Below the pieces are notes generated by a model. That model was not told the origin of the DNA. It saw only the letters and a list, made by a program, of their open reading frames with translations, and did no database searches. Positions 4,907 through 10,229 of a stretch of 20,520 bases of DNA are shown here, one piece after another; the first letter of the stretch is position 1, and every line of letters starts with the position of its first letter. The stretch is taken from the IMG/VR virus record IMGVR_UViG_3300042515_001556, positions 1 through 20,520 of that record, one strand, 5' to 3'. This DNA comes from a virus. A program made the translations under genes and the position numbers.

Positions 4907-5920
4907 ATGGATTACCCAGTGTATAAAATAGTAGTCAATGAGGATGATGAAACGGGCGTTGAGTTCGTTTCACTCGTTGACAAGCCAGCGATAAAAAAAG
5001 ATTTCCTGCTTTTCCAAGAATTTGTTGAACCGGGTGCAAAAGAAAGCGAGGAAGAATTTATCAGCCGTTGCATCCCTTACATGGTTGGCGAAGGAATGGA
5101 ACAAGACCAAGCCGCAGCCGTGTGTTATTCCAAGTGGGGCAGCAAGCAGAAATTTGAAAGTTACAGCGATTACCCGGAAGCAGCAAAAGAAAATGCAAAG
5201 GTTGCACTCCGTTGGGCAGAAGAAAACGGATGGGGTTCCTGCGGCACAGCAGTTGGTAAAATCAGGGCAAACCAGTTGGCCAATGGTGAAGCCATCAGCC
5301 GTGACACGATTGCACGGATGGCAGGCTTTGAAAGGCACCGCCAAAACAGCGACAAAGAACTTGGAGATGGTTGCGGCCGCCTGATGTGGTTGGCTTGGGG
5401 TGGAGATGAAGGTGTTGAATGGGCACAAAGGAAGTTGTCACAAATTGACAAGTCAAAATTTGCCATACAATCGGAAGAAAAGCGCATCATTTCCGGCCCT
5501 ATCATGCTGGCAAACGTGCCCATCTACCGCTTTGATGATATTCGTGGTGAGTATTACGTTACGTTTCCACCCGACACCATTTTCAGTATCGTAAAAAAGA
5601 TGGCTCGTAAAGGGTTGTATAAGGCAGTAAATACCGACCATGCCAATCCGGTGGATGATGGTGTGCACATGATTGAACTTTACCTGATTGACCGGGAGCG
5701 TGGTGTCATGCCGCCAAAAGGTTACGAAGATGCCGAGGATGGAAGCGCATTTGCAAGCTACCTGATTGATAACGAGGAAATTTGGACAAAGGTAAAAGCA
5801 GGCGAATGGAAAGGCTTTTCAGTCGAGGGCATGTTTGACATGGAACAGCAGGATGATATTGTCGTGGCCATGCGTGAAATAGCTGCCATGCTCAAAAATT
5901 TTGCAGAGGAAATCAAATAA
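4907..5920 (+). CDS. XkdF-like head maturation protease carrying two inserted modules
   Basis: The 337-aa product is a probable prohead serine protease of the XkdF/Peptidase_S78_2 type, which trims scaffold and capsid proteins. Residues 2-35 (PVYKIVVNEDD ... FVSLVDKPAI) match the N-terminal strands of that family. The core resumes near residue 197 (SGPIMLANVPIYR) and includes His245 (VNTDH) and Ser305 (GFSVEG), the likely catalytic pair. Between them lie about 140 residues in two modules. The first is EEFISRCIPYMVGEGM ... AVCYSKW. The second runs from NAKVALRWAEENGWG through RMAGFERHRQ to LMWLAWGGDEGVEWA, a module recurrent in phage head proteins with no known function. I chose ATG 4907; a GTG at 4880 in frame would overlap the tape measure gene and adds unconserved residues. 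The scaffold-like and capsid genes follow directly, as expected for a protease. Confidence 0.8.
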   Translation: MDYPVYKIVVNEDDETGVEFVSLVDKPAIKKDFLLFQEFVEPGAKESEEEFISRCIPYMVGEGMEQDQAAAVCYSKWGSKQKFESYSDYPEAAKENAKVALRWAEENGWGSCGTAVGKIRANQLANGEAISRDTIARMAGFERHRQNSDKELGDGCGRLMWLAWGGDEGVEWAQRKLSQIDKSKFAIQSEEKRIISGPIMLANVPIYRFDDIRGEYYVTFPPDTIFSIVKKMARKGLYKAVNTDHANPVDDGVHMIELYLIDRERGVMPPKGYEDAEDGSAFASYLIDNEEIWTKVKAGEWKGFSVEGMFDMEQQDDIVVAMREIAAMLKNFAEEIK

Positions 5921-5936
5921 CTATTATTCTACACGT

Positions 5937-6485
5937 ATGGACATCAAAATTGAACTTTCCGAAATGAAAAGCGGACTTTCTGCATTTATGGCAGAGGTGC
6001 GCCAGCGTTTCGAAAGTGCCGAGCCCAAGATGAAATTTGCTGAATTGACTTTAGTTGATGGTACAATAGTATCATTTGAAGGTGAGGAAGCGGTTGTCGG
6101 AGCGGCTTTAAATGTACTTGGGTTGGAAGGCGTTGTGCCTGCCCCCGATGGCACTCACGAAACCACTGAAGGTTTGCTTATTACTACTATTGATGGCATT
6201 ATCACCAACATTGAAACCAAAGAAATGGAAGCCCCAGAAGCCGAAGCCGAGGTCATTGTTGAATTTGCCAGCAAGGAAGAATTTGCAGCCCTGAACGACC
6301 GCATCGCAAAACTCGAAGAAATGCTCGTTTCCCTTGGCAGCAAGGTTGAAGACACATTCAGCGTTTTTGAAAAGTTTGCATCACAAACCCCGGAGCCTGT
6401 TGCTAAACCTTTCGGCCCGGTTAAAACTGAAAAAAACGAAGCATTGAAAGGTTTTGCTTCTGCACTTAAAAACAACAAAAAATAA
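5937..6485 (+). CDS. Probable capsid scaffold protein
   Basis: This 182-aa acidic protein sits between the maturation protease and the major capsid gene, the usual place of a scaffold. It starts with MDIKIELSEMKSGLSAFM and has a Glu/Ala/Pro-rich middle (EMEAPEAEAEVIVEF). A predicted coiled coil follows (EFAALNDRIAKLEEMLVSLGSK), then a Lys-rich end (ASALKNNKK) like the capsid-binding tails of scaffolds. Residues about 35-105 contain repeated beta-like strands (TLVDGTIVSFEGEEAVVGAAL, then LITTIDGIITNIETKE), seen in related Bacteroidota phage proteins. I use ATG 5937 because the frame's alternative TTG at 5901 lies inside the protease gene. No homology to a named scaffold family is certain, so the role rests on position and composition. 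Confidence 0.6.
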   Translation: MDIKIELSEMKSGLSAFMAEVRQRFESAEPKMKFAELTLVDGTIVSFEGEEAVVGAALNVLGLEGVVPAPDGTHETTEGLLITTIDGIITNIETKEMEAPEAEAEVIVEFASKEEFAALNDRIAKLEEMLVSLGSKVEDTFSVFEKFASQTPEPVAKPFGPVKTEKNEALKGFASALKNNKK

Positions 6486-6492
6486 ATAAAAC

Positions 6493-7437
6493 ATGGCATT
6501 TGTAGTATCAGGGTTGACTAATTACACCAAGGAAACCCAACTCGAGCTTTTAGTAAAAGCAATGTTCAGCAGCAAAACCGCATCTTTGTTGCAGGGCGCT
6601 GGACAAGTTATTCCCGGCATTAAATCAGCCGAGGCACTCCCTCTTTTGAGCAGTGATGTATTCTTTCAAGCCGATGGTTGCGGATATGCACCATCAGGAA
6701 ACACCACCATCAGTCAGCGTGTGTTGACCGTTGGAAAGGTTAAGGTTGAAGAAACTCTTTGCCCAAAAACTTTGGAAACCAAATTCACACAGCAAGGTTT
6801 GGCCGCTGGTTCACCCGTTGACTTGGGAGTATTCCAAGACCAAATCGGTGCAGAAAAAGCAGGCAAAATTGCCGAAGCTATCGAAACTGCTATTTGGCAG
6901 GGTTCACTTTCCGGTAGCGGTAACAACGCAAGATGGGATGGTTTCTTGACTATCTTGACCGCTCTTGGTTTTGGTGGCGCAGGCGACCCAATCAAAGGTA
7001 ACGTTGCTGACGCTTACACTTCAATCACTTCCTCAAACATTGACGACATTATCGCTACCATTTACAGCGTAATTCCTGCCGCTTTGTTGGGCAAGCCTGA
7101 TTTGTTCATTGCTATGGGTACCGACACCTTCCGTTTGTATCGCACTTGGTTGGTAGGTGCTAACCTTTTCCACTATGCCGCTACTGAAACTGCTGAAATG
7201 GAAATTGTTGACCCTATCACTGGCATCAAAATCTACGGATTGAATGGCATGAACGGAACCAACAAAATCGTTGCTGGTCTTTGGTCTAACTTCTTTATCG
7301 GAACTGACATGATGAACGAAGAAGAAGAATACAAATTCTGGTACAGCCAAGACAACGATGAAGTTCGCTACCGTGCAACTTTCAAATACGGAACGCAGAT
7401 TGCATTCCCTGAGCAGGTTGTTTATTTCTCATTGTAA
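6493..7437 (+). CDS. Major capsid protein
   Basis: The 314-aa protein is the best candidate for the major capsid subunit. It follows the protease and scaffold, has a fitting length, and resembles major capsid proteins of Bacteroidota siphophages. It begins MAFVVSGLTNYTKETQLELL and has stretches such as VDLGVFQDQIGAEKAGKIAE, a helix likely equivalent to the HK97 spine helix. Near the C-terminus come MGTDTFRLYRTWLVGANLF and EIVDPITGIKIYGLNG. The ATG is preceded by AAATAAATAAAAC, with no Shine-Dalgarno site. Synonymous codons favour C-ending forms (GAC, AAC, TTC, ATC) more than in the neighbouring genes, consistent with high expression. A strong intrinsic terminator follows at 7462-7491. Confidence 0.85.
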   Translation: MAFVVSGLTNYTKETQLELLVKAMFSSKTASLLQGAGQVIPGIKSAEALPLLSSDVFFQADGCGYAPSGNTTISQRVLTVGKVKVEETLCPKTLETKFTQQGLAAGSPVDLGVFQDQIGAEKAGKIAEAIETAIWQGSLSGSGNNARWDGFLTILTALGFGGAGDPIKGNVADAYTSITSSNIDDIIATIYSVIPAALLGKPDLFIAMGTDTFRLYRTWLVGANLFHYAATETAEMEIVDPITGIKIYGLNGMNGTNKIVAGLWSNFFIGTDMMNEEEEYKFWYSQDNDEVRYRATFKYGTQIAFPEQVVYFSL

Positions 7438-8109: not shown

Positions 8110-8487
8110 ATGCTGTACATTACCAAAGCAGGAAGCCCCGAATTAATAATCACCGGAAAGGAGAAAGTGACAATCTCCCCGGTTTATTATTTGTTGGTTT
8201 TTGAGAGCGAAATGTCGCAGGAGCGCAAGGCATTTTTAGTCACCGACACAAGCACTGCACCCAATAGATACCAACTTTTCACATTTACCGAAGGCAGCAC
8301 CACAGCCAAAACGCTTGCAATCGGCACACATTACTGGTCACTATACGCACAAACTTCATCGAGCAACACAAATTATTTGTTGGCCAATGAGGAAATCGAC
8401 CGGGGACTGGCTTATGTAAGCACCAGCCACACCCCATTCAATGACCACGATGTAAACCTAACCATTAAACAACACAACGTAGGATGA
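8110..8487 (+). CDS. Small conserved phage protein of unknown role
   Basis: I do not recognise a function. The 125-aa product is predicted to be mostly beta strands, with motifs ISPVYYLLVFESEMSQERKA and TLAIGTHYWSLYAQTSS. No membrane segment or catalytic motif is visible. It follows a terminator and overlaps the portal gene by ATGA, so it is probably translationally coupled to the portal. Its beta-rich composition and place among head genes suggest a virion component. A small head- or tail-associated structural role is inference only. Confidence 0.65.
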   Translation: MLYITKAGSPELIITGKEKVTISPVYYLLVFESEMSQERKAFLVTDTSTAPNRYQLFTFTEGSTTAKTLAIGTHYWSLYAQTSSSNTNYLLANEEIDRGLAYVSTSHTPFNDHDVNLTIKQHNVG

Positions 8488-10229
8488 GCTTTGAGCTTTT
8501 AAAAATAGATTTTGCCGAAACCAAACTGCCCAAATTTAAGGAGCAGAAAAGCAAGGGTTTTGTATCGTATGGAGAGAAAAACGACTTTCCACAATCCCTG
8601 CTTGAATTTTATATGCGGGCACCAAAGCATGGAGCTATCGTGCGTACAAAAGCACGTTTTGTTTCCGGTGATGAATGCGTTATTGAGGGCAGCGATGAAG
8701 CGCAAAAGGTTCTTGAATATGTGAACCCATACGAAGGGCTGCACGAACTTAAGGCCAAATTAGCTTTGGACTTTGAAATCTTTAACGGCTTATGCTTTGA
8801 GGTGCATTACAACCGACTTGGCCAAATTTCTGCGCTTTATCATGTGGATTTTTCAAAGGTTCGGACACTCGACCATAAAAGTTACCAGTATGTCGAGGAC
8901 TGGCAGAAATACAAGGCAGAAGATGTAAAGCATTATCCGGCTTTTAACCCGGTAACAGCGCAGCCTTATAGCGTACAACTTTACTACGCACGGGAATATC
9001 AGGCAGGATTAGGAGTTTACCCATTGCCACCATACCAGCATGGGTTGCAGTATGTAGAGATTGAAGTGGAAATCGCAAACTTCCACAACAACAACATCCG
9101 CAACGGGTTTTCAAATGGTACATTGGTGCAGTTATTCAAAGGCCAACCAAGCCCGGAGCAGGCACGGATATTTGAGCGCAAGTTTAAGGAGCGCACAATC
9201 GGCACGGACAATGCAGGCGGTGTACTTATTCAGTTCAACGAGAACAACGAGAAGCCGGCCACCATTAACCACTTGCAACCGAGCAACATGGATGAGCAGT
9301 TTTTGATGTTGAATGGAACCGTGCAAAGTGAAATTGTAATTGCCCACGCTATTCCACCAGTGTTGGCAGGATTAAGAACGGAAGGCGCACTCGGTCAGCG
9401 CAACGAACTGATTGAAGCCTACGAGATTTTTCACAAACAATATGTCAACCACCGCCAGCGCAAAATTGATTACTGCTTGCAAAGCGTTTTAAGGCAACAA
9501 TACCCCGGCATCACCATCGAAACCCGTTCTGCTGAATTTATTGGCTTAGATTACGTTGAATTATATCAGGCAGGCATCGTGACAAAGGATGAAGCAAGGG
9601 AAGCATTGGGAATGAAAGCCGCCCCGGTTGCTGCATCTTTCAACACACAAAATGAATGCACCCGGTGGAATGAGCAGGACATTGATATCTTCATGCAATT
9701 TGGTGAGCCTGCGAGCAATTTTGAGGATGTGAGCATGAAATTTGCGGAACTTGGCAAGGATGAAATGAAAGTTTTATCGGTTGTTTCTGCCGATGACCAA
9801 ACAAGCATTGACGAAATTAGCGAAATAACCAAAATTGACACGGATGAGGTGACCAAAATCTTGAAGAAATTGCAGGACACTGGCAAAATCAAATGGACAA
9901 ACAACGCAATCCGGATTACCGACATCGGCAAAAAGGACATAAACGACACCGGAAAGTTGCCAAAATTGGAGCTACGTTGGAAATACACGCTTGACCCTGA
10001 TGCTTTACCACTGCAACCCGGTGGAAAAAGCCGTGAATTTTGCAAGAAAATGGTGGATGCTTCAAGGTTATACAGCAGGGAGGACATCGAAACCCTGACC
10101 GCACGATTGGGTTATGATGTATGGACAAGGCGAGGCGGTTGGTACACCGTACCTGACAGCGACCCACCCCTGCACATTCCGCATTGCAGGCATTATTGGA
10201 AACAACAAGTAGTAAGGAGGAAAAACTAA
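8484..10229 (+). CDS. Portal protein with C-terminal winged helix and Cys/His module
   Basis: The first 410 or so residues are portal-like, the ring through which DNA enters and leaves the head. Landmarks are FKEQKSKGFVSYGEKNDFPQ, FYMRAPKHGAIVRTKARFV, LALDFEIFNGLCFEVHYN, and the clip/crown region with VIAHAIPPVLAGLRTEGAL. Residues about 425-487 then form a winged-helix DNA-binding fold (SIDEISEITKIDTDEVTKIL followed by GKIKWTNNAIRITDIG). Residues about 515-581 carry a third module with SREFCKKM, RRGGWYT and PHCRHYW (His567, Cys568, His570), recurrent at the ends of Bacteroidota phage head proteins and reminiscent of MuF C-termini. The gene starts in an ATGA overlap and ends in a TAATG overlap. 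The portal call is fairly firm; the roles of the extra modules are unknown. Total length is longer than many portals. Confidence 0.8.
   Translation: MSFELLKIDFAETKLPKFKEQKSKGFVSYGEKNDFPQSLLEFYMRAPKHGAIVRTKARFVSGDECVIEGSDEAQKVLEYVNPYEGLHELKAKLALDFEIFNGLCFEVHYNRLGQISALYHVDFSKVRTLDHKSYQYVEDWQKYKAEDVKHYPAFNPVTAQPYSVQLYYAREYQAGLGVYPLPPYQHGLQYVEIEVEIANFHNNNIRNGFSNGTLVQLFKGQPSPEQARIFERKFKERTIGTDNAGGVLIQFNENNEKPATINHLQPSNMDEQFLMLNGTVQSEIVIAHAIPPVLAGLRTEGALGQRNELIEAYEIFHKQYVNHRQRKIDYCLQSVLRQQYPGITIETRSAEFIGLDYVELYQAGIVTKDEAREALGMKAAPVAASFNTQNECTRWNEQDIDIFMQFGEPASNFEDVSMKFAELGKDEMKVLSVVSADDQTSIDEISEITKIDTDEVTKILKKLQDTGKIKWTNNAIRITDIGKKDINDTGKLPKLELRWKYTLDPDALPLQPGGKSREFCKKMVDASRLYSREDIETLTARLGYDVWTRRGGWYTVPDSDPPLHIPHCRHYWKQQVVRRKN
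10215..10220 (+). promoter_or_regulatory. Perfect Shine-Dalgarno site that fixes a start
   Basis: AGGAGG lies eight bases before ATG 10229. Most genes here lack such a site, so it stands out and supports ATG 10229 over an in-frame upstream start at 10184 inside the portal gene. Confidence 0.7.

Follow-up and report, generated by a model that had tools for sequence, protein, structure and literature searches.

The 20,520-nucleotide stretch of viral DNA analysed here (the window) encodes a head maturation protease of the XkdF type, recognised by its profile match and by the conservation of its putative catalytic pair His and Ser, in which the N-terminal strands are separated from the catalytic core by an insert that is not part of the protease: it consists of two separable modules, whose presence and order vary among homologues. 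We propose that the site between strands and core is a tolerant slot for optional, independently folding passengers, drawn from a pool common to the head proteins of tailed viruses, a reading to which we attach nearly, though not quite, even credence. The original prediction described a maturation protease interrupted by two extra modules, and our analysis confirmed this observation and broadened it: the slot varies between proteases, and the second of its occupants is a domain without known function that is widespread in association with heads. This second module has neither a Pfam model nor a recognised solved relative, and it occurs among the head proteins of both phages and haloarchaeal viruses.

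The 337-residue product matches PF14550 (Peptidase_S78_2, XkdF) over residues 184-309 with 29 bits, the Pfam gathering cut-off being 24 bits, and residues N242, H245, G303, F304, S305 and E307 are each at least 90% conserved in an alignment of 87 sequences. The whole-protein model obtained from that alignment (mean pLDDT 82.5, pTM 0.56) shows strands at residues 5-9 and 17-24, a poorly predicted linker (block 31-40, pLDDT 39) and a helical hairpin at 48-80. Five helices follow within residues 91-180, and the core, of mixed structure, begins at 186; the CYSKW hairpin was modelled within this whole protein. Searching with the protease model in VIA-align 2 returned T4 gp21 (5jbl) as top match (Z 8.3, 115 residues, rmsd 3.0), with the next entry at Z 3.9 and the HCMV protease (1nkk) at Z 3.6, and a plain Foldseek search of the full protease model against the PDB gave no significant matches. 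Within the insert, the CYSKW part matches PHROG 2423 weakly in the window (E 0.03-0.08) and at 8e-5 in the homologue at locus L184, and the second module matches PHROG 2859 over residues 89-183 (E 2e-12, or 7e-13 with the insert as sole query). Pfam gave no match to either window module at E 0.01, with one sub-cut-off match at 0.013. Profiles and model therefore agree with the order of parts proposed in the original prediction (N-terminal strands, CYSKW module, second module, protease core) and with its catalytic pair, positions 245 and 305 being indeed His and Ser. The core was also correctly placed after the insert, and its start needs to be moved from about residue 197 to about 184-186, which brings the insert, predicted at about 140 residues, nearer to 146. 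The coordinates of these parts and of the neighbouring head genes are collected in Table 1.

Table 1. Features of the head gene region, in window coordinates.
Feature	Coordinates	Strand	Basis
XkdF-type head maturation protease ORF	4907-5920	+	337 aa, no internal stops
Protease N-terminal strands (aa 1-37)	4907-5017	+	AF2 strands E5-9 and E17-24; low-confidence linker 31-39
CYSKW module (aa 43-84), predicted helical hairpin	5033-5158	+	helices 48-61 and 66-80; PHROG 2423, weak
Second module (aa 85-183), autonomous five-helix domain	5159-5455	+	PHROG 2859, E 2e-12; stand-alone AF2 model
Protease core (aa 184-316), His245 and Ser305	5456-5854	+	PF14550, 29 bits; T4 gp21 fold match
KFA junction between second module and core (aa 184-186)	5456-5464	+	possible processing site or lead-in to first core strand
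Scaffold-like protein, directly downstream of protease	5937-6485	+	PHROG 24921 positions 177-295, E 1e-3
Probable major capsid protein	6493-7437	+	position and size; PHROG 11320 (function unknown)
Portal protein	8484-10229	+	PF04860, E 1e-14; portal domain aa 71-376

Four viral scans each gave at least 587 to 595 confirmed stretches, so that the insert is no chance feature. When the scan was made with the core only and the 80 ORFs of the best 80 loci were classified, both modules were present in 36, module 2 only in 17 and CYSKW only in 3, whereas 20 had the strands joined straight to the core and 4 were cut at the 5' end. A pool of 157 distinct full-length proteins from the first three scans, biased by its module queries, contained 88 with the order strands-CYSKW-module 2-core, 31 with strands-module 2-core and 19 with neither module; in the remainder, module 2 lay C-terminal to the core (8 proteins, plus 2 with other orders that place it after the core), the two modules were swapped (6), or CYSKW stood alone (3). 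The N-terminal strands are kept in homologues with and without inserts. The original prediction had also raised the possibilities that the insert is always present and inseparable, or that it is integral to the protease fold. The 20 insert-free proteins of the core-only scan speak against the former, and the latter is ruled out by these empty homologues together with the confident model of the second module by itself described below.

Differences in module content were observed even between proteins whose cores are identical. With 100% amino-acid-identical cores, locus L110 has no module, L107 has the second module and L102 and L103 have both; in a further core-identical pair, L111 has none and L106 has module 2. 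Nucleotide alignments of core-identical proteins showed that these module differences are in-frame and have clean edges, with alignable flanks. Comparison of 18 pairs by blastn gave identities of 83-97% for the block downstream, which starts at the core or at a shared module, and of 76-99% for the closest block on the upstream side, so that some pairs come from near-identical phages and others from looser relatives. Moreover, when proteins were clustered at 95% core identity, 8 of the 29 multi-member clusters were mixed in architecture. A quick tree built from the cores of 155 proteins requires at least 16 changes in the state of module 2 (lacking in 22 proteins) and at least 27 in that of CYSKW (lacking in 58), these changes being counted without direction and possibly inflated by short branches.

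The slot and the C-terminus also hold other segments. Counting those that no profile covered and that were at least 38 residues long internally or at least 50 at the C-terminus, we found 39, which fell into nine clusters, five of them singles. The largest cluster (13 segments) mixes a segment with a DxDxT motif and another with CxxC pairs; the others comprise a GPTH-containing module (12), a TPKHF module (7) and DUF3721 (2; PF12518, E 2e-15 in L156, the one scanned). The DxDxT segments of L031 and L184 are alike (48%) and look HAD-like by eye, a label to which Pfam gives no support, and zinc-ribbon matches of the CxxC segment are sub-cut-off only. A KTSC domain was seen in one relative (L184, E 2e-10). 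A further relative, L126 (2854-4149), is a protease without either module that carries at its C-terminus a RelA/SpoT-like fusion, seen in this one relative with a Pfam E of 0.006, below the cut-off; the same C-terminal region matches the C-terminus of a head morphogenesis (MuF-type) family, PHROG 7625, at E 4e-14. In a two-sequence comparison, a CRH-W segment inside the protease of L226 resembles the C-terminus of the window portal (28% over 83 residues, E 2e-5). It was also observed that the proteins at L070 (4001-5515) and L071 (1373-2887) are both 505 residues long, the protease of L070 being fused in-frame to a scaffold-like region.

The original prediction asked whether the insert folds apart from the protease. 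For the second module it is predicted to do so, as AF2 modelled it alone, from 55 sequences, as five helices with high confidence (pLDDT 95.7, pTM 0.87). All 55 sequences match PHROG 2859, a 740-position profile without a stated function in which the second module covers about positions 165-265, and nine residues are identical in every one of them (P90, A97, G117, R120, R143, G157, W164, G165 and G166 in P0001 numbering). The mean net charge of these 55 modules is only +1.3, and that of the window module is -2, so that general DNA binding is not suggested. In search of a known fold, the module was compared with the PDB by Foldseek (no significant match, best E 1.9), by VIA (Z at most 4.0) and by sequence (best E 0.5), and nothing significant was found, which does not prove a new fold. 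Among the predicted viral structures of BFVD, 50 models match it at E of 1e-3 or better; many lack a name, and XkdF, prohead protease, portal, HAD-like, Dps, TUDOR and ParB proteins are among those that have one.

Mean pairwise identity among 30 representatives, which lean to one subtype because the patterns of the source scan included a module peptide, was 50% for the N-terminus, 65% for CYSKW, 85% for module 2 and 53% for the core. The values of 85% and 53% first suggested a recent sweep or transfer of module 2; this was rejected, as the silent sites of the module are saturated too, and none of the 5939 pairs with at least 15 four-fold sites in both parts combined a core identity below 70% with a module four-fold identity above 75%. 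Over the 5139 pairs with saturated cores (core four-fold identity below 0.45), mean four-fold identity was 0.29 in the core and 0.37 in module 2, and mean amino-acid identity was 0.53 and 0.69, respectively. As its silent sites are saturated wherever those of the core are, module 2 is held by purifying selection and has not spread recently. The second module is thus under purifying selection though often absent, and strong conservation in a part that is optional among close relatives indicates a selected accessory function at the level of the head.

The second module is not restricted to XkdF proteases. Searching annotated phages by tblastn, we found it in the prohead protease of HGTV-1 (63.5% identity over 92 module residues, with the core unmatched), in the portal-MuF proteins of HRTV-4 and HRTV-28, in proteins of Synechococcus phage S-CBS1 and of Roseobacter CRP phages labelled capsid, and in Vibrio phages. 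From a scan for distant modules, the 80 loci most like the module of CRP-823 were kept, so that the hosts lean to that type; 77 of 83 hosts (those 80 loci plus three MAG loci) were profiled, with overlapping domain counts. Peptidase_S78 was found in 43 of the 77, Phage_capsid in 38, DUF5824 in 15, the Hva1 TUDOR domain in 11, Phage_portal in 9, Phage_portal_2 in 4, MuF in 3, S78_2 in 2 (the MAG loci L323 and L324) and ClpP in 1. Many of these hosts are protease-capsid fusions, and the module often lies near the N-terminus of proteins of 750-1000 residues. In addition, free-standing copies occur in PaBG (gp148), SCTP-2 (gp459) and Vibrio phage 150E35-1, which implies that the second module can act without the protease; PaBG gp148 adjoins topoisomerase genes, is annotated as a putative DNA-binding protein and has a net charge of +17. 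Hence, the second module also occurs with unrelated head proteases, with portal and MuF domains and as free proteins, in line with the earlier expectation that modules of this type are widespread in head proteins without a known function.

Two annotations deserve comment. Gene 0029 of Vibrio phage 234P10 (L235, 3477-4472) is labelled a DNA methyltransferase, yet its neighbours are head genes and its product contains the second module. PHROG 1530, a family that goes by the same name, has its match in the cores of XkdF proteases, and the label is probably wrong. Gene 40 of Roseobacter phage CRP-823 (L233, 3974-4690) encodes 238 residues, in which the second module is accompanied by a sub-cut-off DUF5824-like stretch; it is labelled major capsid protein, and the next gene has the identical label.

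Outside viruses, the module was found in 1 of 296 genomes of the one phylum surveyed, the seed genome itself, and scanning genomes for two peptide patterns confirmed three loci, all in proteases. The PHROG 2859 profile also had matches in 3 of 14 control genomes. Among 72,556 plasmid records, 3 matched the second module. Two of them, from alphaproteobacteria, encode free-standing module proteins (profile E 7e-32 and 2e-28) away from annotated phage genes, at L358 4748-5282 (Novosphingobium) and L359 4899-5252 (Rhodobacter), and the third has no open frame with a module match. These two proteins rule out a virus-only domain: the second module is common in tailed-virus heads, yet not confined to viruses, and copies located away from phage genes indicate that it is not solely a virion domain. 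The Novosphingobium copy lies directly after a DUF2945 gene. The Hva1 TUDOR domain, present in 11 of the 77 phage hosts, is of the same family as DUF2945, and it and the second module may therefore work together.

The gene directly downstream of the window protease encodes the scaffold-like protein, and the stretch of PHROG 24921 that it matches is the part that follows the protease in that family. Beyond its portal domain, the window portal has a winged-HTH-like stretch at about residues 421-475 (below the Pfam cut-off) and then the C-terminal CRH-W segment; in relatives, the distance from the portal domain to this region varies widely. A recurrent FA motif was noticed in these proteins. In 65 non-redundant proteins, the unassigned residues that separate profiled domains (4103 in linkers and other modules) contain 25 copies of [KRHE]FA, and the domains themselves (15444 residues) contain 4. 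A set of 53 scaffold-like proteins has 46 copies of [KR]FA, compared with a mean of 4.4 (maximum 11) over 200 shuffles; for 34 probable capsid proteins the two figures are 0 and 4.5. In the window, 23 chosen ORFs contain seven [KRHE]FA sites, four of them in the scaffold-like protein (182 residues), one at the junction of module and core, and one after the portal domain; of 30 portal rows, 8 have the motif at this place, before the C-terminal region, the window included. FA is 2.5-fold enriched between domains, behind YP, GM, KR, DY and others, and in scaffold-like proteins, whose repeats resemble coiled coils, DG and FS are enriched above it. The motif gives a weak hint of a site at which passengers might be released by processing, a hint weakened by the fact that FA is not the top dipeptide, that the first core strand follows directly on the junction, that the scaffold repeats are coiled-coil-like and that no more than 8 of the 30 portal rows have the motif after the portal domain.

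A head maturation protease must enter the prohead. A passenger placed in the slot would be carried there by the protease, would remain as a head-internal domain, possibly freed by proteolysis, and could act either on the DNA packaged with it or, with greater probability, at an early stage in the newly infected cell, as passages of the polyvalent-protein study propose for such proteins (PMC5512222). We infer release, ejection and function of the passengers, and an effector role of the window modules would follow by association only, as neither matches a domain of known activity. The original prediction had offered release into the head and guidance of the protease as alternatives; release is the likelier of these two conjectures, because close relatives commonly have proteases without the modules, and portal, MuF and free proteins also contain the second module. 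A bolder form of the passenger reading, which we regard as doubtful, would make many environmental phage proteases (probably of Bacteroidota phages) an evolvable cargo bay. Its slot would be fixed within an enzyme that is essential, close relatives would gain, lose and reorder the optional domains in it, and these would enter every prohead, be cut free by the protease at FA-type sites and so reach the next host. The highly conserved second module would then be a new counter-defence or take-over factor common to phages and archaeal viruses, small relatives of which are kept by some bacteria.

Purifying selection and association with the head would also fit a structural role. The modules might be assembly adaptors by which, inside the prohead, a protease, portal or capsid precursor docks to another of these proteins or onto the scaffold, with no role after maturation. 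The second module does occur mainly in proteins that meet inside the prohead (protease, protease-capsid fusions, portal and MuF), and its frequent position near the N-terminus of large hosts, many of them protease-capsid fusions, agrees with docking; we nevertheless consider this unlikely, since core-identical proteins without the second module show that assembly can do without it, and free-standing copies lie outside head operons, beside topoisomerase genes in PaBG and on bacterial plasmids. That the insert is a regulatory pro-region, keeping the protease inactive until maturation, appears very improbable. Its location between N-terminal strands and core would suit such a function, as would the example of T4 gp21, whose active site is blocked by an N-terminal region that self-cleavage removes, according to passages of PMC9958956, but insert-free proteases are common (the 20 of 80 given above), module 2 follows the core in 10 of the 157 distinct proteins, and it is present in non-proteases.

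The plasmid copies slightly lower the odds of the passenger, adaptor and pro-region readings and raise those of another, in which the second module is a nucleic-acid-linked domain of cells and phages that, in heads, organises, protects or ejects the packaged DNA. The annotation and strongly positive charge of PaBG gp148, the plasmid copy next to DUF2945, the 11 phage hosts with Hva1 TUDOR (by the presumed family link) and the winged-HTH-like match in the window portal are compatible with it. The near-neutral mean charge of the modules, negative in the window, and the lack of a significant fold match to a DNA-binding domain by Foldseek or VIA count against it, and we judge it improbable. Passengers in a tolerant slot thus remain our preferred reading, and natural pairs of filled and empty proteases would permit a direct test of the role of head-borne passengers.

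Regarding known systems, a term search of the phage protein-mosaicism study PMC10684548 gave no passages on proteases or portals, and PMC titles and abstract openings, a scope that mostly leaves subscription papers outside, describe no exchangeable domains in XkdF proteases. Passages of a jumbo-phage survey report XkdF peptidases as alternative head proteases (PMC7824862). With PF14550 proteases and T4 gp21 the window protein shares the core, the His and Ser, the gp21-like fold and a gene position just before the scaffold-like and probable capsid genes; it differs from them in its insert of about 146 residues with two extra domains. The passengers would have functional counterparts in T4 and P1. 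According to passages of PMC9958956, gp21 is present in the T4 head in about 55 copies, alongside internal proteins that the phage can dispense with and of which some are trimmed and injected, and P1 is described in passages of PMC12810830 as packing Dar proteins, one of which is trimmed by the P1 protease. As far as these passages go, the T4 internal proteins and Alt and the P1 proteins DarA and Hdf are head-internal and several are dispensable for assembly; some are trimmed by the head protease, and some are injected against restriction or to modify the host. Those are separate proteins, whereas the window modules are domains inside the protease.

A close parallel is offered by the polyvalent proteins of Iyer et al. 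(2017), for which passages of that study propose head packaging and injection of multidomain proteins and describe assemblin-like peptidases at C-termini (PMC5512222). The window protease is likewise multidomain and encoded with virion genes (a portal gene, a scaffold-like gene and, by position, a capsid gene), its peptidase lies on the C-terminal side with small domains before it, and a RelA/SpoT-like type, such as the one in relative L126, is listed there. Those passages do not describe presence and absence among close relatives. In contrast to the polyvalent proteins as presented there, the window modules have no Pfam match at E 0.01, some relatives have modules after the core, and the window modules are placed within the protease itself, with its N-terminal strands on one side and its core on the other.
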